A stretch of 62,546 bases of DNA from positions 1 to 62,546 of the forward strand of contig JACPPM010000133.1 of NCBI GenBank assembly GCA_016191015.1, written 5' to 3'. This document shows, piece by piece, positions 4,374 to 37,089 of this stretch (its first letter is position 1; each line of letters starts with the position of its first letter). Source of the DNA: Acidobacteriota bacterium (GTDB taxonomy: Bacteria; Acidobacteriota; CAIWXX01). Position numbers and translations under genes: made by a program. Below the pieces are notes generated by a model. The model made no database searches. It was given only the letters and a program-made list of their open reading frames with translations, and was not told the origin of the DNA.

Positions 4374-4789
4374 CCGCGAACGAAATACCCGGAGATCCGC
4401 TGTGCGATCGCCTGAATGCCAGTGGCCAGCTCGGCGCGTGCCCGGGCCTTCTGATGCTCGAGGTCCGCGGCTTGCCGGTCGAGAAGCTCCCGGACTTCCC
4501 GCTGCGACTTCTCCACGACCCCGTCGCCTTCCTTCTGCGCTTCGCCGCGGACACGGGCCTTGAAACTATTCCCTTCGCGACGGGCCTGGGCGATGGCCGA
4601 CTGCAAACCGGCAAGCTGCTTGTCATGGTCGGAGAGAATCCGTGCGGCCTCCAGCTTCGGCCCCTCAACTCTCCGATTCCGCTCGTCGATGGCCGCGATG
4701 ACGGGGTTGAAAAAGAGACGTTCGAGGATGAAAACCAAAGCCACAATGATGAAGATGATAATCAGCACCGAGCTGTCTATGTCGATCAT
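4370..4789 (-). CDS. atpF': F-type ATP synthase subunit b'
   Basis: Second peripheral stalk subunit. The 139 residues begin with one membrane helix (SSVLIIIFIIVALVFILERL) followed directly by FNPVIAAIDERN and a charged coiled-coil, the normal b/b' layout. It is the first gene of the visible operon: no atpI, atpB (a) or atpE (c) gene lies upstream, and the next 216 bp are non-coding. Having both b and b' suggests a heterodimeric stalk, as in phototrophs and many other bacteria. Which of the two genes is called b and which b' is by convention only. Confidence 0.88.
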   Translation of the reverse strand: MIDIDSSVLIIIFIIVALVFILERLFFNPVIAAIDERNRRVEGPKLEAARILSDHDKQLAGLQSAIAQARREGNSFKARVRGEAQKEGDGVVEKSQREVRELLDRQAADLEHQKARARAELATGIQAIAQRISGYFVRG

Positions 4790-22746: not shown

Positions 22747-23469
22747 GTGCATTCACGCGAGTCCGTGTCCCACGGGATCCGCGTGCAGCGCGCCAGCGAC
22801 CAGTCGCTCCTGGTGATGTTCGACCAGAGCCCTTCACCTCGCTTCCGTCCTCAGGTTGCGCGATTTGCGCGAACGCTCATCGAGAAGCGCCCTCAACCTC
22901 TCCTCGACGCCATCCCCGCATATGCGACGGTCCTACTGATCTTCGACCCACGAACGACGCGTTTCCGCGAAGTGGAAGAGCTGGTCGAGCGAACGCTGGA
23001 AGAGATTGACGGTGCCCCCGAACTGGCCCCGCGCGAAATCATCATTCCGGTTAGCTACGGAGACCGGTACGGACCCGACCTCGAGGATGTCGGCCGGATC
23101 AATGGTCTGGCCCCCGAGGAGGTGATACGTATCCATTCGAGGGGTTCCTACCGGGTCTGCTTCCTGGGCTTCTCGCCCGGCTTTCCTTACCTGGACGGGC
23201 TCGATCCCGCGATCGCCACACCTCGGCTGTCGACGCCGCGCACCCATGTCCCGGCGGGAAGCGTGGCGATCGGCGGGACCCAAACCGGCATCTATCCGCT
23301 CGATTCTCCGGGCGGTTGGAGAATCATTGGGCGCACGGCAGTTCGATTGTTCGACTCCAGTCGGGGTCCCGCGACACTCCTCGACATCGGGGACGTTGTC
23401 CGGTTCAGAGCTGTAAACCAGGTCGAGCATGCACGGGGTTCGAATGGTCTCGAACAGAGTGCCGGATGA
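22747..23469 (+). CDS. pxpB: 5-oxoprolinase subunit PxpB
   Basis: Subunit of the ATP-driven PxpABC 5-oxoprolinase, which opens pyroglutamate to glutamate. The 240 residues contain the KipI/allophanate hydrolase subunit 1 signature (IIIPVSYGDRYGPDLEDVGR, VCFLGFSPGFPYLDGLDP, THVPAGSVAIGG, QTGIYPLDSPGGW). Start is GTG at 22747; the first ten residues are not conserved, so a later start is possible. It overlaps pxpC by four bases. PxpA is encoded 8.5 kb away at 32940. Confidence 0.93.
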   Translation: MHSRESVSHGIRVQRASDQSLLVMFDQSPSPRFRPQVARFARTLIEKRPQPLLDAIPAYATVLLIFDPRTTRFREVEELVERTLEEIDGAPELAPREIIIPVSYGDRYGPDLEDVGRINGLAPEEVIRIHSRGSYRVCFLGFSPGFPYLDGLDPAIATPRLSTPRTHVPAGSVAIGGTQTGIYPLDSPGGWRIIGRTAVRLFDSSRGPATLLDIGDVVRFRAVNQVEHARGSNGLEQSAG

Positions 23470-24407
23470 AAATTCTCAAACCCGGATTCCTGACAAGCAT
23501 ACAGGACGCAGGCCGCTGCGGGGTTGCCCACATGGGCGTCGCGCGCGGTGGCGCCGGTGACGCGATTTCGATGAGGCTCGGCAACCTCCTGGTCGGCAAC
23601 GACGAAAGCACGGCTGCCATCGAGATGACTCTCGTCGGTGGAACTTTCGAATCCGAGGAAGATGCGGTCATCGCGATCACCGGGGGAGACTTCGAGCTCA
23701 GGTTGGATGGCACCGCGATCCCGTTGTGGACATCCCAGCAGATCAGCGCAGGGCAAACATTGAGTGTCGGCCCGGCGCGTTCGGGGGTACGTTGCTATCT
23801 GTGCATCCGAGGCGGAGTCGACGTGCCGCTCGTGCTCGGCAGTGCTTCCATGCACTTCCCCGGCCGATTCGGCGGCCTGGACGGACGGGTGCTTGTCCGG
23901 GGCCAGGTGGTTCCTCTCCGGCACGTCCAGAACGCGGAGACCGGGTCCACCCCGTGGCGCGTCAGGCCGGACCTCCTGTCTCGCCTACGACAGAGGGCAC
24001 CATTCCGAGTGACTGAGGGCCCGCAGCATGGCGGCTTCGAACCTGAGGCCTTTGCAACCCTCACATCCTCAGCATATGAGGTTCTTGAGGATTCCAACCG
24101 GGTCGGGCTGCGCCTCCGCGGCCCGCAGCTCCGGGCGGTCTCGACAGCCGACATGCTCACCGAGGGAGCTCCAATCGGAGCCATTCAGGTTCCCCCGGAC
24201 GGCCAGCCGATCATCCTCTTCGTCGACCAGCCCACGACCGGCGGATACCCGAAGATCGCAAACGTTATTTCGGCGGACATCCATCGTGTGGGGCAGCTCA
24301 GGCCCCGAGATCAGGTGCATTTCGAGAGAGTCTCGTTCGCCCGCGCGCTGGAACTGCTGCAAGAACTGGAAGCTCTGATCGGCCGACACGCCCTCGAGCC
24401 CGCCTGA
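23466..24407 (+). CDS. pxpC: 5-oxoprolinase subunit PxpC
   Basis: Second subunit of the PxpBC complex (KipA/allophanate hydrolase subunit 2). The 313 residues start MKILKPGFLTSIQDAGRCG, then MGVARGGAGDAISMRLGN and ITGGDFELRLDGTAIP. The later motif is TEGAPIGAIQVPPDGQPIIL, DQPTTGGYPKIANVI. The ATG overlaps the pxpB stop (ATGA). Full length. The rest of the gap to the next gene holds a palindromic repeat. Confidence 0.94.
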   Translation: MKILKPGFLTSIQDAGRCGVAHMGVARGGAGDAISMRLGNLLVGNDESTAAIEMTLVGGTFESEEDAVIAITGGDFELRLDGTAIPLWTSQQISAGQTLSVGPARSGVRCYLCIRGGVDVPLVLGSASMHFPGRFGGLDGRVLVRGQVVPLRHVQNAETGSTPWRVRPDLLSRLRQRAPFRVTEGPQHGGFEPEAFATLTSSAYEVLEDSNRVGLRLRGPQLRAVSTADMLTEGAPIGAIQVPPDGQPIILFVDQPTTGGYPKIANVISADIHRVGQLRPRDQVHFERVSFARALELLQELEALIGRHALEPA

Positions 24408-24856: not shown

Positions 24857-25297
24857 ATGAAGAAAGTCCTGCTCATCGCGGATGACGAGGAGTCCGTCCG
24901 CGAGGCGATCGCGTGCCTGGTTGGAGCGATGTACAGGAGCAGGGTCGAGAGCGGAGAGCTCGAGATTCAGACTGTGGGAGACGGGGTGGAGGCCATCGCG
25001 CTCGCCAGCAGAACTGCGCCTTCGCTCATCCTGATGGATGTGAACATGCCACTGATCGACGGCATCGAAGCTTTTTACAAGATCAAGGATAACAACGGCA
25101 ACGTTCCCGTCAACACGTTCCTTCTGACGGCCTACTCGACGGATGGTACCGTTCGGGAACGGGTGGAGCAGGCCATGACGGATGGTCTACTCGGCTGCCT
25201 TTCGAAACCCATCGGTGCCGTCGATCTCGCGAGGATCATCGACGAGTATGCGTTCGGATCAGGCCCGTCTGGCGCGGGCTCTGCTAATGGGGCCTGA
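24857..25297 (+). CDS. Stand-alone receiver-domain response regulator
   Basis: A 146-residue CheY-like protein. Acidic pocket D9-D10 (IADDEE), phosphoacceptor D61 in LILMDVNMPLIDG, T91 in FLLTAYS and K117 in LSKPIG are all present. Only a short tail (SGPSGAGSANGA) follows, so there is no output domain. I chose ATG 24857, preceded by GAAGAGAG; a GTG 7 codons upstream is in frame. Its 3' end overlaps that of the convergent sigma-54 activator by 14 bp. Partners are probably the nearby sensor kinases; inference. Confidence 0.93.
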   Translation: MKKVLLIADDEESVREAIACLVGAMYRSRVESGELEIQTVGDGVEAIALASRTAPSLILMDVNMPLIDGIEAFYKIKDNNGNVPVNTFLLTAYSTDGTVRERVEQAMTDGLLGCLSKPIGAVDLARIIDEYAFGSGPSGAGSANGA

Positions 25298-26765
25298 ACC
25301 CGTGTCGGTGGAGAAAAGCGACGAAGCGTCCGTAGTCATCGCCCGATAGATTGAAATAGGAGGCCAGAAGGCTGAGCTGTCCGCCCGAGCTTTCAAAAGC
25401 CTTTTCCAGAATGAGGGAGACATCCGTGCGCGTCAGCTCCCGGCGTTTGAACGGCATGTAGACTGCATCCCAGAAGGTGCGCCCGCGAGATCGGACTTCG
25501 AAGATGATCTGCTCGGTGCGATCGAGGGCAGGCCGCTCAGCGTGGTCGAACTGCAGATCCGATGCCTCGATCATGTCGCCGTTCGCCATGACACTTGCTC
25601 GTTTCAGTACGTTCTCCAGCTCGCGAACATTGCCATGCCATGGGTGCGCTTCGAGCTTTGCAATCGCGCCCCCGGCAAGGCGCTTGGCAGGAAATCCGTT
25701 GCGTTTCGCGAAGAACCACAGAATGTACGTGGCGAGATCGGATATATCCCCCTGACGCTCTCGAAGGGGTAGAATGTGCAAGCGGAAGACGCTGAGACGG
25801 TAGTAGAGATCGGCTCTGAAGTGCCCTGAAGGAGAGGCGCTCAGAAGGTCCTTGTGCGTCGCAGAGACGAGGCGGATGTCGACGCGGGTGGATCGCTGGT
25901 CGCCCAGCCGTCTCACTTCGCCGGTCATCAGTGTGCGGAGAAGCAGGGTCTGCAGCTCGTGGCTCATATCGCCGACTTCGTCCAGAAAAAGCGTGCCACC
26001 GTCAGCTTCCTGGCAACATCCGTTCTTGTCCAGGATCGCGCCCGTAAAGGCTCCGCGACGATGGCCGAAGAATTCGTCCAGTAACAGATTCTCGCTCGGC
26101 GCCGCTCCGCAATTCACCGAGACGAACGGACCGGTGCGGCGGGGGCTGAGGGCGTGGAGCGCCATTGCGAAGATCTCTTTTCCCGAGCCGCTTTCCCCGG
26201 TGATCAACACAGGCTCGTTCAGCCGCGCAAGACGCTCGACCTCCTCCTGCAGATGAAACATCCTCGGGTGACGGCCGATGATCACAAGCTGTCGGCCATA
26301 TGCCTCCAACCCCTGCTCGATCTCGTGGCGGTGCAAGTAGTAGCCGGCCAGCCGGGCGAGGTCCGCAAGCCGTGGATCTTCTCGTCCTCCTGCCGGGGCG
26401 ATGAGGAAACCGACGGGGCGCTCCAGGATCGGGCAGGAGATGATCCGCATCTCCGCGTGCGCCTGAAGAAGGCGCGCCGCCTCCCCATCCCCGAACTTCG
26501 CCGTCGAGATCGTCTCGTGACCCGTCCCCTTCCAAATCGTGGCCGCGACATCTTTCGAGATGCTCTCCCGGCCGCCCCTCCCTTCGATCCGGGCGACCAG
26601 CAGAGCCGAAGAGGGTACATAGCAACCAACGGGACCCTCCCCTGCAACGTGCTCCATTATTCTGAGCAAAACACCAAGGAAGCGATCGAGCGGATACAGC
26701 TCGAGGAGATCCGGGAAGGCGGAAATCAACGGGAGGATATCGTCTTCCTGTCCCCCCACTGCCAT
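25284..26765 (-). CDS. Sigma-54 dependent transcription activator without a receiver domain
   Basis: Bacterial enhancer-binding protein of 493 residues from ATG 26765. Residues 1 to about 160 are a variable sensor region resembling a GAF fold. The AAA+ domain follows: Walker A GESGSGKE, the sigma-54 contact GAFTGA, Walker B GGTLFLDEVGD, and R-finger region FRADLYYRLSVF. The C-terminus is a helical Fis-like region (ILEKAFESSGGQLSLLASYFNLSG) that is rather divergent. The gene is convergent with the lone receiver and lies 332 bp downstream of the ATPase-less propeller sensor. Targets are unknown. Confidence 0.93.
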   Translation of the reverse strand: MAVGGQEDDILPLISAFPDLLELYPLDRFLGVLLRIMEHVAGEGPVGCYVPSSALLVARIEGRGGRESISKDVAATIWKGTGHETISTAKFGDGEAARLLQAHAEMRIISCPILERPVGFLIAPAGGREDPRLADLARLAGYYLHRHEIEQGLEAYGRQLVIIGRHPRMFHLQEEVERLARLNEPVLITGESGSGKEIFAMALHALSPRRTGPFVSVNCGAAPSENLLLDEFFGHRRGAFTGAILDKNGCCQEADGGTLFLDEVGDMSHELQTLLLRTLMTGEVRRLGDQRSTRVDIRLVSATHKDLLSASPSGHFRADLYYRLSVFRLHILPLRERQGDISDLATYILWFFAKRNGFPAKRLAGGAIAKLEAHPWHGNVRELENVLKRASVMANGDMIEASDLQFDHAERPALDRTEQIIFEVRSRGRTFWDAVYMPFKRRELTRTDVSLILEKAFESSGGQLSLLASYFNLSGDDYGRFVAFLHRHGFRPH

Positions 26766-27097
26766 CTTGCCTTCTACTATACTACGATCGCGGCGTACCT
26801 GCTGCGGCATATCGGCGAGCCCGCGTCACGTCTCGGTGAAGTGGACCGTGTGCTCGTCCCTGAACCAGATGCAGGCGAGTCCCCTTCCGGTTCAACGCAA
26901 AGACTCAAGGAGGTAGCGCCTCTAAGATCGGTCCAGAGGTTCTGTGTGTCGTCGCGTCAGAAAGGGGCGCGAGCAGAGCCGCGACGACCCGCGCGTACGG
27001 AAACCCTCTCTCGAAAACGCTACTCGCGACCCTCGTCGCGGGAGGACATCATCCTGGTTCTATCGAACTTCGGTGTCCAACCTCAGGCGGCCCCGTG
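26766..27097. other. Intergenic region upstream of the sigma-54 activator
   Basis: 332 bp with no gene. I looked on the minus strand for a missing kinase ATPase domain continuing from the sensor gene and found none. Weak inverted pieces occur near 26980-27050 (CGCGACGACC..., CTCGTCGCGGG). Confidence 0.6.
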
Positions 27098-29719
27098 TCA
27101 CGTCGGCTCTCCCGTGACGTCCATCATCGTGTCGTGAGTCGCATAAGGAGCTGTCCGATACGTACCTCGAGACTGAATCTTTTCGAGCTTCTGGAAGAGC
27201 CCGACCACCCGGTTCACGCCGGCGTACGCCTCCTCCAGTGGTTTCCTCAGCTCATCATCCGTCACCAGGAGTGCCAGGAGATCCAAACGGGCGGTCACGA
27301 CTTGGAGTGGCTGGCGGGCCTCGTGAAGCAGTCCGAGAGTAACCTGGGTGATGACCTGAGCCCGCTCCTTCTCTCTCCTGAGCTGCACGGAGTGGCGGAG
27401 GCGCGAGAGGGAGTAGACCGCGGCCATCAGGGCGAGGACGACCGTGAAACGAAACCACCACGTGCTCCAAACTGGTTTGGTGACCTCGAACCTGAATTCC
27501 GACGAAGTCCGGCTCCACAGATCGTCATCATTGCACGCCACAACTTCGAATGTGTAGGTGCCTGGAGGGAGGTAGTTGTAGTAGGCCGTCCTGCGCGTCC
27601 CGGCCGAGATCCAGTCTCTACTCAGTCCTACGAGCCTGTACTTGAACCGGACCCTGCCAGGGACTTGAAAACTGAGGCCGGTATAGTCGAACTCCATGTT
27701 CTTGGGGCCCGGAGGAAGGCGCGGATACGAGCCGCGCGCGATGGGTTCGCCATCCACCGTGACCTGCTCGATTCTGACCGGGGGGGGCACTCCATTTGAT
27801 CGGATGTGTTCGGGATCTATCATTGCCAATCCCTTCGTGGTGGGGAACCACAGCTTCCCATCGCGGGATCTCCATCCGGTGGGCTGGACGCCTCCGTTGC
27901 ACTCATTGCTCCTCAGCCCGTCGGCCTTTGTGTAAAGGCGGCATGTCACCGAGCCCGCTCTGCCGTCGGCGACGTCGTTCAGCTCCTTCTTGCGCACCTC
28001 GAGCACACCTCGGTTGGTGCTCATCCAGAAGCTGCCGCGCGAGTCATCGAGTATTCGGAAGATGGACTCGTCCGCGAGCCCTTCGCGTGCCGTGATCGCC
28101 GCAAGCTTGCCATTTCTCAACCGGTTCAGGCCTCCCCTCGTGCCGACCCAGATCGACCCCTCATCGTCATCCTCGATTGCATAGACCACGTTGTTCGTCA
28201 GGCCATCTTTCACGGTGTAGCTCGTGAAGCCCTTGCCGTCGAAGCGACTCAGGCCCGCCGTCGTGCCCAGCCACAGCACCCCTCGCCGGTCCTCGTGGAT
28301 CGCGGTTACCACGTCATTGATGAGTCCATCCCGCGAACTGTAACCGGTGAAGGTATCGTCCCTGTAGAGTGCAACCCCACCACCCGCGGTCCCCACCCAG
28401 AGCTCGCCTGTGCGGGTCCCGGAGATCGAACTGATTGTTTCGTGGGGAAGCCCGTCTTTCCGGTGGAAGACGGTGAAGCGGCCATCGTGGAAACGGTTCA
28501 GACCTCCACTCCTGGTACCGATCCAGAGGTCCCCGTGGCTGTCCTCGGCCAGTGAAATAACGAAGTCGGACGAGAGTCCGTCCGCTGTGGTGTACGTCCT
28601 CACTACATGCCCGTCCTTCAGCATTTGGAGCCCGCCGCCGTGGACCGCCACCCAGAGATTTCCGCGTCGATCTTCGAGAACCGCCAGCACCATCCCCTCA
28701 GCAAGCCCCTCCGGCGGACCGATACAGGTGATTTTCGTATCCCTCAGCCGGGCAAGACCTCCCGCATAACTCCCCACCCACACGCCTCCCTCGCGATCCT
28801 CAGCGAGGGCCAGGACCAAATTGTCTGGCAGCCCGGAGCTCGTCGAGAGAACGTCGAACACCCCTCCTCGGTATCGGTTCAGCCCGGCGACCGTGCCGAC
28901 CCAGAGATTCCCATCCCGGTCCTCGCGGATCGAGCTGACCGAATTGTCGGAGAGCCCTTGCTTGGTCGTGTAGACGCTGACGGAACCGTCCTTCAGATGC
29001 ACCAGGCCTCCACCCAGAGTCCCCACCCAGATCGACCCCCGTTGGCCCGCATAGACTGTTCGGATCGCACCGGTGCCGAGAGGTTCCTCTCCAGTGAATC
29101 GGGAGAACTGTCCCCCGCTCAGGCGCGTGAGCCCCGACTTAGTCCCGATCCAGAGGGTGCCGTCGCTATCCAAGGCAAGGCACGAGATGGTGTCCGAAGA
29201 GAGCCCGTCTCGCGTCGTGTAGATGTTGAATTTTCCGTTCTCAAGATGGTGCAGCCCACCACCGCTCGTTCCAACCCAGAGACCTCCGTGGCCATCAGCG
29301 CAGATCGCGCCGACGCGATCACTGCTCATTCCATCCGGCGTCCCGTACACTCGAAACTGCCCCTTCTCAACCCTCAGAAGCCCACCACCGTCAGTCCCGA
29401 ACCACAGCACCCCTTCGGCGTCCTCGAACAGCGCCGAGACGAAATTGTTGGTCATCTCGTGCACGGTTTCCTTCGAGAAGATCGTGAACCTGACTCCGTC
29501 GAACCGGACCAGACCCATCTCGGTGCCCAGCCAGACGTAGCCGTCCCGCGTCTGCAGGATCGATTGCACAAAGTTCTGAGGGAGTCCATGGTCGGTTTGC
29601 CAGACGTCCAACCCGTACTGAGTCAGAGCCTTGGTGGGATCTAGACCCACGGCGCTCCGCGCGCTGAAAAGCAGCGCCAAACCAAGTATTGAGACCGATC
29701 TCATTGGGATGGCTTTCAT
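27098..29719 (-). CDS. Propeller sensor with histidine domain but no ATPase domain
   Basis: An 873-residue membrane sensor. Signal-like start, then 13 two-component-regulator propeller blades, each ending in W(V/I)GTxxGGLxRL-type motifs, then a Y_Y_Y domain (FDYTGLSFQVPGRVRFKYRL, YNYLPPGTYTFEVVACN). One membrane helix (WWFRFTVVLALMAAVYSL) leads to an HisKA-like helix with H799 in LLHEARQPLQVV. The protein ends 75 residues after that histidine; there is no N, G1 or G2 box. GAAGGAG precedes the ATG. It could be a phosphotransfer or dead sensor partner. Blades give repeats of about 120 bp in the DNA. Confidence 0.93.
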   Translation of the reverse strand: MKAIPMRSVSILGLALLFSARSAVGLDPTKALTQYGLDVWQTDHGLPQNFVQSILQTRDGYVWLGTEMGLVRFDGVRFTIFSKETVHEMTNNFVSALFEDAEGVLWFGTDGGGLLRVEKGQFRVYGTPDGMSSDRVGAICADGHGGLWVGTSGGGLHHLENGKFNIYTTRDGLSSDTISCLALDSDGTLWIGTKSGLTRLSGGQFSRFTGEEPLGTGAIRTVYAGQRGSIWVGTLGGGLVHLKDGSVSVYTTKQGLSDNSVSSIREDRDGNLWVGTVAGLNRYRGGVFDVLSTSSGLPDNLVLALAEDREGGVWVGSYAGGLARLRDTKITCIGPPEGLAEGMVLAVLEDRRGNLWVAVHGGGLQMLKDGHVVRTYTTADGLSSDFVISLAEDSHGDLWIGTRSGGLNRFHDGRFTVFHRKDGLPHETISSISGTRTGELWVGTAGGGVALYRDDTFTGYSSRDGLINDVVTAIHEDRRGVLWLGTTAGLSRFDGKGFTSYTVKDGLTNNVVYAIEDDDEGSIWVGTRGGLNRLRNGKLAAITAREGLADESIFRILDDSRGSFWMSTNRGVLEVRKKELNDVADGRAGSVTCRLYTKADGLRSNECNGGVQPTGWRSRDGKLWFPTTKGLAMIDPEHIRSNGVPPPVRIEQVTVDGEPIARGSYPRLPPGPKNMEFDYTGLSFQVPGRVRFKYRLVGLSRDWISAGTRRTAYYNYLPPGTYTFEVVACNDDDLWSRTSSEFRFEVTKPVWSTWWFRFTVVLALMAAVYSLSRLRHSVQLRREKERAQVITQVTLGLLHEARQPLQVVTARLDLLALLVTDDELRKPLEEAYAGVNRVVGLFQKLEKIQSRGTYRTAPYATHDTMMDVTGEPT

Positions 29720-29967: not shown

Positions 29968-31026
29968 CTAGTTCTCTGCGCACACCGAGCGATACTTGAC
30001 GAAATTGATCAAGCACTGCTCGTCGTTCGGGCAGAAATCATCATAGACCCCATAGAAACCGGCATCCGCGTACTCCTCCACGCACACCGGAAACGCGGCG
30101 CTGTCACACCACTCGAAGCCGCAGCCGTTGCTGCTGCATTCGGTATCGTTGTAGCTGCCGCACTGGGAATAGCGATAATGCTGGGCGCCAAAAATATGGC
30201 CGATCTCATGAGTCGTCGTCGGCTGATTGTCCCAATTCCAGCTCCAATTGCAGGACCACGGCGGTGAGAGCTCGATGATGGCCCAGCTTCCGGCAGCCCC
30301 ATACCCGTTGTGCCCCATCTCTCCGTTCCGGAAATAGACGTTGAATGTGTTCCCGGATCCGCCGATGGGGTTGCCGCTCCCACAGCCACTGAGATCACGC
30401 GTTCGGTAGACGCCGTTGATCTGCCATTGAACATCGATACCGAACCATGTGTTCCACCAGACTTCGCTCGAAATCGTCGCCATCGCGCTGTTCACGTAGT
30501 CTTTCAACGTGTAGTCGAGGTAGTACACGGGCACGCTCGGATCGCGGTAGATATTGATGTAGTACTTGTACGTGGTGGCCGCCACAGCCGCCGGAAGCGA
30601 CATTGGAGGCATCACGTTCTTCCGTCCCGCGATCGCTTGCTGAGCCACCGAATGAATGTACATGCGGTGCCCCTTGGTCTTTTCCAACGCGGTTGTCACT
30701 TCATTGAGGTCAGCCAATGTCATGGTGACGTCATCCGGGAGATCGCCCTCGAGCATGCCCTCATCACCGATCTGCACTTGATGCTTCTGCATGAGGCCGA
30801 AGAACTCGCGCTTCAGCAGTTCTTGCTCCTGCTTCAATCTTGCATAAGTCGGGTCCTTGCGGGCCGCCGTTCTATCGAAGCTAGCGTGTTGTGCCCGCAT
30901 CGCCAGTTGAGCGGTCAAGTACGCCTTCTGGATCTTCTCATGATCCTGGGACTGGGCGAGTGTCTGCGTTCCTCCGCCGAGAAACACCAAACCTGATAGG
31001 ACAATCCCCAATGTCCGCAATTTCAT
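29968..31026 (-). CDS. Secreted metzincin-type metalloprotease
   Basis: A 352-residue protein with signal peptide (LGIVLSGLVFLGGGTQTLA). A helical prodomain-like region of about 130 residues follows, then a reprolysin-like catalytic domain with the zinc motif HEIGHIFGAQH at residues 273-283 (three His and a Glu). The C-terminal part is rich in cysteine (about nine after the zinc site), suggesting disulphide bonds outside the cell. ATG 31026 has AGGAGG in front; the upstream in-frame ATG adds a stretch without a leader. Prodomain activation is inference. It stands upstream of the propeller sensor on the same strand, 248 bp apart. Confidence 0.9.
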   Translation of the reverse strand: MKLRTLGIVLSGLVFLGGGTQTLAQSQDHEKIQKAYLTAQLAMRAQHASFDRTAARKDPTYARLKQEQELLKREFFGLMQKHQVQIGDEGMLEGDLPDDVTMTLADLNEVTTALEKTKGHRMYIHSVAQQAIAGRKNVMPPMSLPAAVAATTYKYYINIYRDPSVPVYYLDYTLKDYVNSAMATISSEVWWNTWFGIDVQWQINGVYRTRDLSGCGSGNPIGGSGNTFNVYFRNGEMGHNGYGAAGSWAIIELSPPWSCNWSWNWDNQPTTTHEIGHIFGAQHYRYSQCGSYNDTECSSNGCGFEWCDSAAFPVCVEEYADAGFYGVYDDFCPNDEQCLINFVKYRSVCAEN

Positions 31027-31725
31027 CTGTTGCCTCCTAGTAGATTTCGTAATCCATGCGTGCAGGTATTCCCGATTCAATCGCACCGGTCGAGGGCACC
31101 TGCATTCCTCAATGTGTGTCGACGCAGGGGACCAACGCGTTGCACTCTATCCTCCCATGGTTGACCTCCAAGAGTGGCGTTCCAAGCCTCAGTGATGCTT
31201 GCGCTCGCGGCACGGGGCATTTGAAGTATGACTGGAGTGGATCGTCTGTTCGGCCCGATGGCGTTCTCATCCGAGTTTCGAACCGGTACCCCAGTTTCCT
31301 CCCTGCACCAGTGACGGATGCATAAGCGTTTCGTTCCGGCTGTTCGGTCGTTGCGATGAGCCTCTCTCCCTGAAAGCAACAACCATGCCGGGAGCGCCTG
31401 GCCCGAATTGGGCCCGAAACTCCTCATTCGAGCCGATACGAGCCGCGTGCACGATCAACCGCGCATACTGATACCGTATCGAGGATACGGTTTTCGTATC
31501 ACGCGGCGTAGCGAGGCGGCCAAGGCGGCCCTCGAAGCGGGCGAAGTGACCCGACGCGGGAGGTGAGGGTGCTTGATCATCGGTAGCCTCTCTTGGACAC
31601 GGCACCCTTGCCGGAGTCGAGCCCGCTACCTGTCTCCTGCTTAGCTTGGCCCGGCCGGCGAGCCGGCGGCGCTTGCATTCCTCGTCCCTTCGTCATAGAA
31701 GGTCGGGGAGGATTCCAGAGCCGAC
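31027..31725. other. Long intergenic region with GATAC half-site cluster
   Basis: 699 bp between divergent genes (metalloprotease and MFS transporter). I see no gene. The clearest element is at 31470-31500: GATAC, GTATC, GATAC and GTATC half-sites, including the perfect palindrome CCGTATC-GAG-GATACGG at 31474-31490. The word ACCGTATC also occurs at the pdxR promoter. Confidence 0.6.
31470..31500. promoter_or_regulatory. Candidate operator: paired GATAC/GTATC half-sites
   Basis: Perfect 7-bp inverted repeat CCGTATC / GATACGG around GAG, flanked by one more half-site on each side. It is 225 bp before the MFS-pxpA operon. The same 8-mer is present in the -35/-10 spacer of pdxR. Confidence 0.45.
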
Positions 31726-32943
31726 ATGCGCATCCAAGGCGTCTCCGTCACCGCCGAACAATGGAAGTCACTCCTCGCCGCCATGCTCGGCTGGGCGCTC
31801 GATGCCATGGATGTCATGTTGTACGCATTCGCGTTGACAGCCATCAAGTCCGAGTTCCACCTCAGCTCCGCGACCGCCGGCGCGCTCGCATCAGCCACGC
31901 TCCTCGCATCGGCCTTCGGAGGAATCTTCTTCGGGATGCTCGCCGACCGCATCGGCCGCGCGCGCGCCCTCATGTACTCCATCCTCGTCTACTCCATCTT
32001 CACCGGCTTGACCGCGACGGCCGGCAGCCTCCCGGAGCTCGTGCTCTGGCGGGCGATGGTCGGGATCGGGTTGGGCGGAGAGTGGTCCGCCGGATCGGTG
32101 CTTGTGTCGGAGACCTGGCCGCCCGAGCATCGCGGGAAGGCGATCGGACTGATGCAGTCGGGCTGGGCGATCGGCTACATCATGGCGGCGATACTCTCGG
32201 CGGCAATCATCCCGCGCTACGGATGGCGAGTGCTTTTCGTCGCGGGCATCCTGCCGGCTCTGCTGGCCGCCTGGGTCCGGAAGAACGTCGCCGAGCCGCG
32301 CGTCTGGATCGAGCGGTCTGCCGGCAAGCCCCAAATCAGGGATCTCGGCGCAGTGCTCCGCCGCCGCACCACGATCACCGCACTCCTGATGACGACGTGC
32401 GTTCTTTTCGCCTACTGGGGACTGTTCACCTGGGTTCCCGCGTTTCTGTCCTCACCGATCGAAGCCGGCGGAGCGGGTCTCACGGTTTTCAAATCCTCGA
32501 TGTGGATCATCCCGATGCAGATCGGGGCGTTTCTCGGTTACACGCTCTTCGGCCTGCTCTCCGACCGCCTCGGCCGGCGGCCGTCGTTCATCGGGTTCCT
32601 CGTCGTGGCTGCGGTCCTCGTGCCCGTCTACGGCCTCCTCGGACGCCACGAAACGACTCTGCTCATCCTCGGACCGCTCGTCGGATTCTTCGGCCACGGG
32701 TACTTCAGTGTCTTCGGGGCGATGTTGGCTGAGCTGTTCCCGACACGCGTCAGGGCCACCGCTCAGGGTCTCGTCTACAACTCGGGGCGTGCCGTGAGCG
32801 CTCTCGCACCCTACTCTATCGGGGCTCTGGCCGACGCCTGGGGCATCGGGAGCGCTCTCGCCGTCACCTCCGCTTTCTTCCTGGCCGGCGCAGGACTGAT
32901 GCTGTTACTGCCGGAGACGCGCGGCGCGGAGCTGGAACAGTGA
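31726..32943 (+). CDS. MFS transporter, sugar/organic acid-proton symporter type
   Basis: A 405-residue protein with 12 predicted membrane helices. The loop 2-3 motif is MLADRIGRARALM, and its repeat is LLSDRLGRRPSF. ATG 31726 follows GGGGAGGA. Its stop overlaps the pxpA GTG by four bases, so it is co-expressed with the pyroglutamate-cleaving subunit; import of 5-oxoproline or a related acid is therefore a good guess but not proven by sequence. It resembles the aromatic acid/proton symporter-like branch by eye. Confidence 0.92.
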   Translation: MRIQGVSVTAEQWKSLLAAMLGWALDAMDVMLYAFALTAIKSEFHLSSATAGALASATLLASAFGGIFFGMLADRIGRARALMYSILVYSIFTGLTATAGSLPELVLWRAMVGIGLGGEWSAGSVLVSETWPPEHRGKAIGLMQSGWAIGYIMAAILSAAIIPRYGWRVLFVAGILPALLAAWVRKNVAEPRVWIERSAGKPQIRDLGAVLRRRTTITALLMTTCVLFAYWGLFTWVPAFLSSPIEAGGAGLTVFKSSMWIIPMQIGAFLGYTLFGLLSDRLGRRPSFIGFLVVAAVLVPVYGLLGRHETTLLILGPLVGFFGHGYFSVFGAMLAELFPTRVRATAQGLVYNSGRAVSALAPYSIGALADAWGIGSALAVTSAFFLAGAGLMLLLPETRGAELEQ

Positions 32944-33704
32944 TCGCGATCGATCTCAACGCGGACGTGGGGGAAAGCACCGCGGCACTCGCGGACGGTT
33001 CCGAAGAGGCGCTCATCCAGCTCCTCACCTCTGTCAACATCGCGTGCGGCGCACATGCAGGGGACGCCCAAACGATGACGCTGGTCGTCGGGATTGCGAA
33101 GAGGCACCGCGTGGCGGTGGGGGCGCACCCCGGCTACCCCGACAAAGAAAACCTGGGCCGCGTAAAATTGCAGATGAGCAGCGAGGAGATCTCCGGCACT
33201 GTGCACGAACAGATCCGGCTACTGGCCGACATCGGACGCGCGTGCGGGATCAGCATTGGCCACGTGAAGCCACACGGCGCACTCTACAACATGGCCGCAC
33301 GCGATCCGGTGGTGGCCAGGGCGATCGCCGACGGCGTCGCACGCATGACCCGCAAGGTCATTCTGGTGGGCCTCGCTGGCTCGCTCATGCTGAAGGCCTG
33401 GGAGGATGTCGGGTTCGTGGTGGCGGCCGAAGCTTTTGCCGACAGAACGTACGAGCCGGATGGATCGTTGCGATCACGGCGCTTCGACAACGCCCTCATC
33501 ACCGACCCGCACGCCGCGGCCGAACAGGCAGCGCGCATTGTCCTTGGTGAGCACGTCATCGCATCGAACGGAAGCCGGGTCCCCATCAAGGCACAGACGA
33601 TCTGCATCCACGGCGACACACCCCGTGCCAGCGACATCGCCACGGCAGTCAGGCGGCGACTGCAGAATTCAGGTGTCGAGATCGCAGCACTCGATCCGAG
33701 GTAG
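32940..33704 (+). CDS. pxpA: 5-oxoprolinase subunit PxpA (LamB/YcsF family)
   Basis: The 254 residues start VIAIDLNADVGESTAALADG and contain the family signatures NIACGAHAGDAQTM, VGAHPGYPD, GHVKPHGALYNMAA, EAFADRTYEPDGSL and QTICIHGDTP. The GTG overlaps the MFS stop. PxpA needs PxpB and PxpC, which are encoded at 22747-24407, so the enzyme is split over two loci. Confidence 0.95.
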   Translation: MIAIDLNADVGESTAALADGSEEALIQLLTSVNIACGAHAGDAQTMTLVVGIAKRHRVAVGAHPGYPDKENLGRVKLQMSSEEISGTVHEQIRLLADIGRACGISIGHVKPHGALYNMAARDPVVARAIADGVARMTRKVILVGLAGSLMLKAWEDVGFVVAAEAFADRTYEPDGSLRSRRFDNALITDPHAAAEQAARIVLGEHVIASNGSRVPIKAQTICIHGDTPRASDIATAVRRRLQNSGVEIAALDPR

Positions 33705-33921: not shown

Positions 33922-36900
33922 GTGAGGCGTCGCGGGTCGTGGCACCACATCGCCGGGCGGCAGGCTACGGTGGCGGTGGTGGCGTTGCTCTTCGTGCCGC
34001 CGAGCCCCGCGCTCGATCCCGGCAAAGCCCTCACCCAATATATCCGCGATGAGTGGCAGGCCTCGCAAGGCTTGCCGCAGAGCTCCGTGTTCGCGATCTG
34101 CCAGACGCGTGACGGCTACCTCTGGCTTGGCACCCAATCCGGGCTCGCCCGGTTCGACGGCAACCGCTTCGCGGTGTTCGACACCAGGAACGGACTGAAG
34201 CACAACTACGTCTGGGCCCTGCTCGAGGATCGTGACGGAAGCCTTTGGATCGGCACCGTTGGAGGAGGACTGAGCCACATGAAGGAGAGGCAGTTCCGAG
34301 CGCTCACGGTGGAAGACGGGCTTCCGAACAACCACGTCCGCGCGCTCTGCCAGGATCGCGCGGGGAGCATCTGGGTCGGCACCGATGCCGGGCTCGGTCG
34401 AGTCGCGGATGGACGGCTGACCACGTTCGGGACAATGGATGGCCTCGCGAGCAGCCAGGTGAATTCGCTTGCCACGGATCGAGAGGGGAGCCTCTGGATC
34501 GGTACCGATCTGGGGCTTCAACGCCTTCAAGACGGCACGTTCACAACGTGGACGACGCGGGAGGGTCTGCCGAACGACCGCGTGCTCTCTCTTCTCTCAG
34601 ACCGTGCCGGGAGGCTCTGGATCGGCACACAGGGAGGGCTCGGCCGCCTTGCCCAGGGTAGGCTCACGACAATCGCCTCCGCAGATGAGCTCGGCAACGA
34701 CATCGTTCTGGCGCTCCGCGAAGATCAGCACGGAAGCCTCTGGGTCGGTACCTACGGAGGAGGTCTCAGCCGTTTCAGAGATGGCAAGATCACAAGCCTG
34801 ACTGTGGATGACGGCCTCTCGAACGACATCATCTCCTCCATCTACGAGGACCGCGAGGGAAGCCTCTGGGTCGGCACGAACGGCGGAGGGCTCGATCGTC
34901 TGAAGGACTCGAAGTTCACAAGCTTGACGACCCGTGAGGGCCTGTCCAACGACCTGATCCTCTCTACACAGGAAGACGCCGATGGCACCCTTTGGTTCGG
35001 CACCGCCGGCGGTGGTCTGAATCGCGTCGAGGGTGGAAGAGTCAAATCCTACACGACGCGAGACGGGCTTTCGAGCGACATCGTCTTCTCGACGTATCGG
35101 GACCGGGCGGGGACCTTCTGGATAGGCACCGACGGTGGGCTCGACCGCCTGGACGGCGACGCAGTGACGCGCTGGGTCGCGGGCGAAGATCGCCTGTCGC
35201 CGAGGCGAGTGCGGGCGATTTACGAAGACGCCGGGGGGAGCCTCTGGGTCGGGACCGACGGAGAGGGACTGATGCGAATCGCTCGTGGCGTGGTGTCACG
35301 ATTCACCAAGAAGGAGGGGCTCTCGGACGATGTCGTGAGCTCGATCTGTGAGGGCGCTGATGGGAGTCTCTGGATCGGCACCGAGGTCGGACTCAATAGG
35401 CTCATGGGTGGAAAGCTGACGACGTTCACGACCCGGGACGGCCTGGCGAGCGATTTCGTCCTGACAATCTCTCGGGACGGGCAGGGAAACCTATGGATCG
35501 GGACCTTCCGTGGGCTGAGCCTCTGGGCTGACGGGCGCTTCAGGTCCTTCACCGCTGCCGAGGGTATCTCGGATGGCCCGATTGGGGCGATCCTCGAGGA
35601 TGCGTCAGGCAACCTCTGGATGAGCACCAACACGGGCATTTTCCGCGTGAGCAAGGCCGAGCTGCACGCCGTGGCCGCCGGCGGCCGGGCTGCGGCATCG
35701 CCCACATGGTATGGGTCTGCTGATGGAATGAGAGCCGCCGAATGCAACGGCGGCTACCAGCCTGCGGGATGCAGAGCACGGGACGGGCGGCTGTGGTTCC
35801 CGACCGTCAAGGGCGCCGTCGTCATCGACCCCGAGAACATCCCCGTCAACCCACTCCCTCCGCCGGTCCTCATCGAGCAGGTGCTCTTCGATCGAGTGCC
35901 CATAACCGGAGCTCTCACCAAATCCGATCTCATCGTCTCGCCAGGCACCGAGAAGTTCGAGATTTCCTACACGGCCTGCAGCCTCCTCGCCACACCCCGG
36001 GTGCGATTCAAGTACCGGCTAGAGGGATTTGACCGGGACTGGGTGGAGGCCGGCTCCGAGCGCATCGCACGCTACACAAACCTCCCGCCCCGTCACTACA
36101 CCTTCCGCGTCATCGCATGCAACGAGGACGGTGTCTGGAACCAGTCCGGCGCCTCCTTCTCCTTCCACCTGAAGCCTCACCTCTACCAGACGCCGTGGTT
36201 CTACGCCTTGTGCGCGATCGGAATCGTGGGCATCGCAACCGGCGTTCACCAGACCCGAGTGCGCCGCCTGAAGGCGCGCCAGCAGGTGCTCACCTCCCTC
36301 GTGGAAGAGAAGACCCAAGACCTTCGGCTGGCGATCGACGAGCTGCAGGTCCGAAACGAGGAGCTGGCTCGGCTCAACAGCGAGAAGAACGAGCTCCTCG
36401 GCATCGCCGCCCATGACCTGAAGAACCCGCTGGGCTCCATCCGGGGCTATGCAGAGATGATCATCGAGGAGCCCGGGATGGATCTTGCCGAGCGCCGGGA
36501 GGTTCTCGAGAAGATCGTCGTGGCCTCGCAGCGGATGGTCGATCTGATCATCGACCTCCTGGAAGTCAACGCCATCGAACGCGGGCAGATGAAATGCGAG
36601 TTGGCCCCGTGTGACGTAGGGGCCGTGGCCGCCCAGGTGATCGAGTCCTGCCGCCGCGCTGCCGACGCGAAGGGCCAAACGCTCCACTACGAAGCACCTC
36701 CCGAGCACGCCGTCGCTGACGCCGACCGCGACATCACGCTCCAAGTCTGCGACAACCTCCTCGCCAATGCAGTGAAATACTCGCCTCACGGGAAGAGCAT
36801 CTGGGTGAGGGTACGCCATATGGACGGGAAGGTGAGAATCGAGGTGAGGGATGAGGGCCCCGGAGTCTCGGCCGCGGACCTCAAGAAAATGTTCGGAAAG

Positions 36901-37089
36901 TTCGCGCGGCTCACGGCACGCCCGACAGGAGGTGAGCACTCGACGGGGCTCGGCCTCTCCATCGTGAAGAGTATGGTGGAGGCGATGCACGGGCGGGTCT
37001 GGTGTGAGAGTCAGCCAGGCGCCGGCGCCACCTTCATCGTCGAGCTGCCCGCGAATCCGGCCCAGGGCCTGGTCAAAGTCCCGATCTAA
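33922..37089 (+). CDS. Propeller histidine kinase, complete
   Basis: A 1055-residue membrane sensor kinase. Signal-like start, 13 propeller blades with W(I/V)GTxxGGLxRL repeats, a Y_Y_Y domain (FEISYTACSLLATPRVRFKY), a membrane helix (WFYALCAIGIVGIATGVH), a coiled coil, then HisKA (IAAHDLKNPLGSIRGY), N box (CDNLLANAVKYSPHG), G1 (VRDEGPGVS) and G2 (GLGLSIVKSMVEAMHG). GTG at 33922 is the only plausible start. No regulator gene is adjacent; the lone receiver at 24857 is one possible partner. Confidence 0.94.
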   Translation: MRRRGSWHHIAGRQATVAVVALLFVPPSPALDPGKALTQYIRDEWQASQGLPQSSVFAICQTRDGYLWLGTQSGLARFDGNRFAVFDTRNGLKHNYVWALLEDRDGSLWIGTVGGGLSHMKERQFRALTVEDGLPNNHVRALCQDRAGSIWVGTDAGLGRVADGRLTTFGTMDGLASSQVNSLATDREGSLWIGTDLGLQRLQDGTFTTWTTREGLPNDRVLSLLSDRAGRLWIGTQGGLGRLAQGRLTTIASADELGNDIVLALREDQHGSLWVGTYGGGLSRFRDGKITSLTVDDGLSNDIISSIYEDREGSLWVGTNGGGLDRLKDSKFTSLTTREGLSNDLILSTQEDADGTLWFGTAGGGLNRVEGGRVKSYTTRDGLSSDIVFSTYRDRAGTFWIGTDGGLDRLDGDAVTRWVAGEDRLSPRRVRAIYEDAGGSLWVGTDGEGLMRIARGVVSRFTKKEGLSDDVVSSICEGADGSLWIGTEVGLNRLMGGKLTTFTTRDGLASDFVLTISRDGQGNLWIGTFRGLSLWADGRFRSFTAAEGISDGPIGAILEDASGNLWMSTNTGIFRVSKAELHAVAAGGRAAASPTWYGSADGMRAAECNGGYQPAGCRARDGRLWFPTVKGAVVIDPENIPVNPLPPPVLIEQVLFDRVPITGALTKSDLIVSPGTEKFEISYTACSLLATPRVRFKYRLEGFDRDWVEAGSERIARYTNLPPRHYTFRVIACNEDGVWNQSGASFSFHLKPHLYQTPWFYALCAIGIVGIATGVHQTRVRRLKARQQVLTSLVEEKTQDLRLAIDELQVRNEELARLNSEKNELLGIAAHDLKNPLGSIRGYAEMIIEEPGMDLAERREVLEKIVVASQRMVDLIIDLLEVNAIERGQMKCELAPCDVGAVAAQVIESCRRAADAKGQTLHYEAPPEHAVADADRDITLQVCDNLLANAVKYSPHGKSIWVRVRHMDGKVRIEVRDEGPGVSAADLKKMFGKFARLTARPTGGEHSTGLGLSIVKSMVEAMHGRVWCESQPGAGATFIVELPANPAQGLVKVPI

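Follow-up and report, generated by a model that had tools for sequence, protein, structure and literature searches.

Proteins with a HisKA domain and no HATPase domain amount to a few per cent of HisKA proteins (3.66% in SMART, PMC3591291). Annotation usually calls them kinases or dismisses them as incomplete, and P2CS lists them among phosphotransfer proteins or incomplete kinases (PMC2716373). An archaeal non-enzymatic HK-like class has been described, for which phosphatase activity was put forward as a possibility (PMC5847659). A ChrS protein with an evolved frameshift in its ATPase domain can act via a second kinase (PMC9491836), and in the PhyT-SdrG system of Sphingomonas and the PhyK/LovK-MrrA systems of Caulobacter, a histidine takes phosphate from a single-domain receiver and passes it on, with no need for ATP binding (PMC5898713, PMC5964349).

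Here, we describe a propeller sensor that lacks an ATPase domain, encoded in a 62,546-nucleotide stretch of DNA from an Acidobacteriota bacterium (contig JACPPM010000133.1), which we analysed as a whole and call the window. The relevant features are:

27098-29719, minus strand: CA-less propeller sensor gene, start at 29719, 873 aa plus stop; from N to C terminus a signal peptide, Reg_prop double propeller, Y_Y_Y domain, one transmembrane helix, DHp and tail
27482-27670, minus strand: Y_Y_Y domain, residues 684-746 (Pfam PF07495)
27392-27460, minus strand: membrane helix, about residues 754-776 (sequence, and model helix 754-818)
27167-27367, minus strand: DHp hairpin, about residues 785-851 (homology to the C51 paralogue, which matches Pfam HisKA, and two model helices)
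27323-27325, minus strand: phosphoacceptor His799 in LLHEARQPL (alignment of six propeller sensors)
27101-27166, minus strand: C-terminal tail of 22 residues ending GTYRTAPYATHDTMMDVTGEPT, with conserved Thr856, Tyr859, Asp867 and Gly870
24857-25297, plus strand: stand-alone receiver, 146 aa (Pfam Response_reg, 5.6e-16)
25284-26810, minus strand: sigma-54 activator without a receiver, between the sensor and receiver genes (Pfam)
33922-37089, plus strand: complete propeller histidine kinase (HATPase_c at 36724-37056)

An earlier note on this DNA had recognised a propeller sensor with a membrane helix and the motif LLHEARQPL, and its reading frame, start and length were all verified. Pfam searches of the protein returned Reg_prop (1.6e-70) and Y_Y_Y (7.6e-15), the two domains that characterise Reg_prop/Y_Y_Y two-component sensors; the propeller part is predicted to be periplasmic and the DHp to lie on the cytoplasmic side of the single membrane helix. 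Pfam HisKA itself was not detected in the window's copy, so the HisKA-like helix proposed in the note stands as a two-helix DHp with a phosphoacceptor histidine by way of homology to the C51 paralogue, which is 53% identical in the DHp region and matches HisKA at 1.1e-7. Through its paralogues, the closest Pfam family of the DHp is HisKA (PF00512), and its motif is HEARQPL, not the HRxxN of HWE/HisKA_2 proteins. The note's description of a protein ending just after its histidine was right in that the stop codon precedes any ATPase domain, but the wording was loose, since 74 residues follow His799: the remainder of DHp helix 1, helix 2 (822-851 in the model) and the 22-residue tail, which is of low confidence and unstructured in a single-chain monomer model built from only six sequences.

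A Pfam search found no HATPase_c in the sensor protein. Searching the whole home genome gave 118 HATPase_c matches, of which the only one within the window lies inside the 33922 kinase, confirming that neither the sensor nor the frames downstream of it encode an ATP-binding domain. The sensor lacks the HATPase_c (CA) domain of a HisKA-type histidine kinase and has the make-up of a 'HisKA, no HATPase' HK-like protein. No dedicated ATPase-only partner gene occurs at any sensor locus inspected; in the subset of the 118 matches examined for a separate ATPase protein, which covered part of the short frames, a strong match in a short frame turned out to be a piece of a complete kinase cut off by a contig edge. 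A near-identical copy of the C-terminal end of the 33922 kinase, at a contig edge elsewhere in the home genome (L070 2021-2461, on C60), reflects either a recent duplication or a repeat in the assembly.

The short form is conserved, as comparison with homologues bore out for two paralogues in the home genome and four orthologues in Bacteroidota. The propeller paralogues, on contigs C51 and C53, match the window sensor through DHp and tail to the same end point, with identities of 53% (E 1e-30) and 46% (E 2e-16), respectively. Four Bacteroidota genomes, all from one family, each encode a complete propeller sensor, about 900 aa long, whose domain order matches that of the window protein and whose ending is similar (KFKTK.YT.DQ.MIDLTG). 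Across six aligned full-length propeller sensors, the histidine, Glu+1, Arg+3, Gln+4, Pro and Leu are invariant, as are the Thr, Tyr, Asp and Gly of the tail. Since the homologues share both the end point and these tail residues, the sensor gene is not truncated. No orthologues were found elsewhere in its own phylum at E<=1e-12 (60 genomes), the best match beyond the three home copies across 396 genomes reached only 2.4e-10, and no close homologues were found on plasmids.

The sensor is paired with a particular kind of receiver. The 24857 receiver has intact catalytic residues (the acidic pair, Asp61, Thr91 and Lys117), and in four of four Bacteroidota genomes, as at C53, the gene for the sensor shares 4 bp with that of a stand-alone receiver of the same subfamily. 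These overlapping receivers, of 134-141 aa, are 41-45% identical to the 24857 receiver and have in common with it a longer stretch after helix 1. A subfamily profile scores close members at 215-245 bits and finds exactly two in the home genome (225 bits in the window, on C78, and 215 bits on C53), the next receiver scoring 65 bits. Each Bacteroidota genome has one such receiver, always next to the propeller sensor, while a genome of the same family as the home genome (G001) has neither sensor nor subfamily receiver; wider sampling of both phyla yielded no close member away from these sensors. Distant relatives at 105-118 bits do occur in two genomes (G261 and G373), with no CA-less sensor alongside and with one acidic residue lost, so the linkage is limited to the close subfamily. 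Such distant receivers, with the acidic pair altered to DN and no sensor nearby, lie at L143 6945-7358 and L144 2463-2870. At C51, no receiver lies within the 16 kb inspected.

In two further genomes (G197 and G371), the propeller, the DHp with its tail and a receiver are fused in one protein that has no ATPase domain. The fused proteins, of about 1000 aa, come from two species of one genus (L109 2714-5689 and L131 3350-6406). The gene overlap, the restriction of the subfamily to these sensors and the natural fusions together provide good evidence that the DHp and the receiver function as partners.

The conserved tail places the sensor's DHp in a wider class. A profile (A2) built from 15 DHp-plus-tail modules splits DHp domains into two groups: in the home genome, four proteins match along the whole tail, and some 70 others break off ahead of it. 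In the collected loci, a non-random sample on part of which A2 was trained and in which about 25 tail-bearing proteins are orthologues of one family, 47 of 51 distinct tail-bearing matches lack an in-frame HATPase, 44 of them ending within 21 residues and three continuing for 130-137 residues into a receiver; all 43 tail-less matches carry HATPase. Many tail-bearing members are linked to a receiver, and members other than the propeller sensors carry an HExxN motif. Judged by its sequence, the tail-bearing DHp module of the sensor belongs to this ATPase-less class.

The class takes varied forms. Receiver-DHp two-domain proteins were seen at five loci (L049, L050, L051, L104 and L112) and a GAF-PAS-DHp-receiver protein at another (L106). 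An FHA-GAF-DHp-tail protein of about 700 aa, with no ATPase domain and an ending like EDYADGSSILKLG, is conserved, with about 25 relatives, throughout one family of the phylum (L068 2153-4255; L075-L100). The fourth CA-less protein of the home genome (L069 2204-6023, on C258) is a 421-aa degenerate receiver-GAF-DHp-tail protein; its gene (stop at 4758) is followed by genes for a complete histidine kinase (start at 4755) and an NtrC-type regulator and by flgB/flgC-like genes, which marks a flagellar locus, and a similar gene order occurs in G001 (L107). A scan of genome contigs also turned up 7TMR-DISM sensors with the same CA-less DHp and tail (L016 4813-6324 and L018 4648-6303), with no receiver gene adjacent, in the Bacteroidota family that holds the four propeller orthologues. 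At two loci (L051 6701-7438 and L056 3953-4651), a receiver-DHp-tail gene overlaps the end of a complete kinase gene, which suggests a flow of phosphate from kinase to receiver to DHp.

The earlier note had further proposed a split relay of three proteins, in which a sigma-54 activator without a receiver faces a receiver without an output. Pfam searches verified both domain assignments, and the activator and receiver genes are convergent and overlap by 14 bp. The pairing of the sensor with the stand-alone receiver was upheld, with the receiver subfamily overlapping the sensor at five other loci, whereas the activator is missing from all other sensor-receiver loci inspected and is tied to the pair by position only; a relay of DHp and receiver without an ATPase is plausible. 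Sigma-54 control of the cluster gained no support, as -24/-12-like sites occur at chance level (9 found vs 8.9 expected). The suggestion that the 33922 kinase phosphorylates the sensor was not borne out: its H-box, AAHDLKNPL, is unlike that of the sensor and its DHp is not similar, its gene lies on the opposite strand with at least two genes between, no ATPase-only partner occurs at the sensor loci inspected, and the kinase is linked to the sensor by position only. Just upstream of the sensor gene, on the same strand, 29968-31086 encodes a secreted metalloprotease-like protein with HEIGHIFGAQH, whose Pfam matches are weak, Reprolysin-like and under the cut-off. At 22747-24407 and 32940-33704 lie what we take to be 5-oxoprolinase subunit-like genes, pxpB and pxpC, with pxpA beside an MFS transporter. 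These genes flank the signalling cluster as if it lay within the set.

By analogy with PhyT-SdrG and PhyK/LovK-MrrA, the best analogues among described systems, we tentatively read the sensor as a histidine phosphotransferase, or phosphate drain, that is gated by a signal and exchanges phosphoryl groups with its dedicated receiver. The periplasmic propeller would control a cytoplasmic DHp dimer, and this dimer would carry out no chemistry other than swapping phosphoryl groups with a single-domain receiver, which in the window is the 24857 protein. The receiver would obtain phosphate from another kinase or from acetyl phosphate, and the periplasmic signal would decide whether His799, having taken up this phosphate, returns it or hands it on. 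Neither sensor nor receiver can use ATP, so phosphate must have another source, and phosphoryl chemistry is indicated by the retention of the histidine and of the receiver catalytic residues. We infer the dimerisation, phosphoryl exchange, direction of flow, signal and output of this scheme; an output receiver is not encoded beside the sensor-receiver pair, so a complete relay cannot be drawn. Three observations count against exchange: the sensor retains the Glu at H+1, a residue whose only role in CrdS is in autophosphorylation, though it has no ATPase domain; the C51 sensor, one of three in the home genome, has no receiver nearby; and PhyT, PhyK and LovK keep a CA domain, with HWE/HisKA_2 kinases in their pathways, and are therefore analogues only. 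With greater reserve, we consider it possible that the locus represents an ATP-free module, in which a propeller gates a CA-less DHp that exchanges phosphate only with its own co-encoded or fused receiver. Such a module would form the propeller branch of a broad class of sensory histidine phosphotransferases, recognisable by a conserved tail that contains a tyrosine and takes the place of the CA domain.

Among the alternatives, a truncated, frameshifted or misassembled kinase gene can effectively be dismissed: the assembly is fragmented (349 contigs), but six more propeller sensors in two phyla end at the same point, five of them with overlapping receiver genes. A signal-gated phosphatase, in which the DHp dimer would dephosphorylate a receiver charged by acetyl phosphate or another kinase, is unlikely. 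HisKA domains do dephosphorylate receivers, the HExxN motif occurs in other members of the tail-bearing class, and the idea has been raised for 'HisKA, no HATPase' proteins (PMC5847659). However, PhyT was at first called a phosphatase too, and none of this activity was detected in vitro. In place of the phosphatase motif H-E/D-x-x-T/N the sensor has HEARQ, and nine of nine propeller members have Gln at H+4 (HExxQ), which argues against a plain phosphatase, though not decisively, as complete kinases with HExxQ also exist. In HisKA proteins, Asn or Thr at H+4 is needed for phosphatase activity, and the N375Q substitution abolished it in CrdS, leaving no measurable activity (PMC3510030).

We consider it improbable that the sensor is half of a split kinase or heterodimer, in which a complete kinase or a free ATPase domain would phosphorylate His799 in trans and phosphate would flow from sensor to receiver. 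The absence of an ATPase-only gene from all inspected sensor loci, the contig-edge origin of the short-frame HATPase_c match and the dissimilar DHp of the 33922 kinase all speak against such an arrangement, despite the retained Glu at H+1, the ability of EnvZ domains to function when split, the lack of HATPase in 3.66% of HisKA proteins (PMC3591291) and the heterodimerisation of ChrS with HrrS (PMC9491836). A non-enzymatic scaffold, whose DHp dimer would bind and release the receiver with no phosphoryl chemistry on the histidine, has precedents in DivL-like pseudokinases and in the ChrS truncation, where the histidine played no part in the effect (PMC9491836); it is a doubtful explanation here, as the histidine and the receiver catalytic residues are conserved across two phyla. 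Between the phosphotransferase reading, the phosphatase and the scaffold, the overlapping one-to-one receiver gene and the natural fusions offer a defined pair that would separate the models in one assay, and the tail provides a sequence mark that distinguishes the ATPase-less class from truncated kinases.

Like the 'HisKA, no HATPase' HK-like proteins already known from censuses, the sensor combines sensor domains with a HisKA-like dimerisation domain, a conserved histidine and no ATPase, whereas the census entries are, in the part of that source considered, mostly archaeal PAS/GAF types, with no propeller, tail or dedicated receiver reported there (PMC5847659). A propeller sensor of this kind, its tail and its dedicated overlapping receiver seem not to have been described before: in the literature, mostly openly accessible journals, we came across no account of any of the three, and a search for 'DHp-only' proteins gave nothing. 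The CheA3-CheA4 split kinase places catalysis and phosphoacceptor on separate proteins (PMC3591291), as the proposed split would, but belongs to the CheA class and has a known ATPase partner, and none was found at the sensor loci. Spo0B and ChpT also use a DHp-type dimer for ATP-free phosphotransfer, such a dimer being presumed here, but unlike the sensor they are soluble, sensorless and keep a CA-like domain (see also PMC5898713). PhyT-SdrG and PhyK/LovK-MrrA of the alphaproteobacterial general stress response resemble our system in pairing a kinase-like protein, membrane-bound in PhyT, with a single-domain receiver; they differ in their HRxxN-type DHp, in the presence of a CA domain (degenerate in PhyT) and in a known downstream regulator, PhyR, and the Sphingomonas receiver is encoded elsewhere, unlike the paired receiver gene here. 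Of the phosphoryl exchange typical of PhyT/PhyK, the sensor loci show the gene pairing. The sensor part shares its periplasmic double propeller and Y_Y_Y domain with the Bacteroides hybrid systems BT4663, BT3049 and BT4673, which are complete kinases that also possess an ATPase, a receiver and a DNA-binding domain, and it is nearest to the periplasmic domains of BT4663 and BT3049, both by sequence and by fold.
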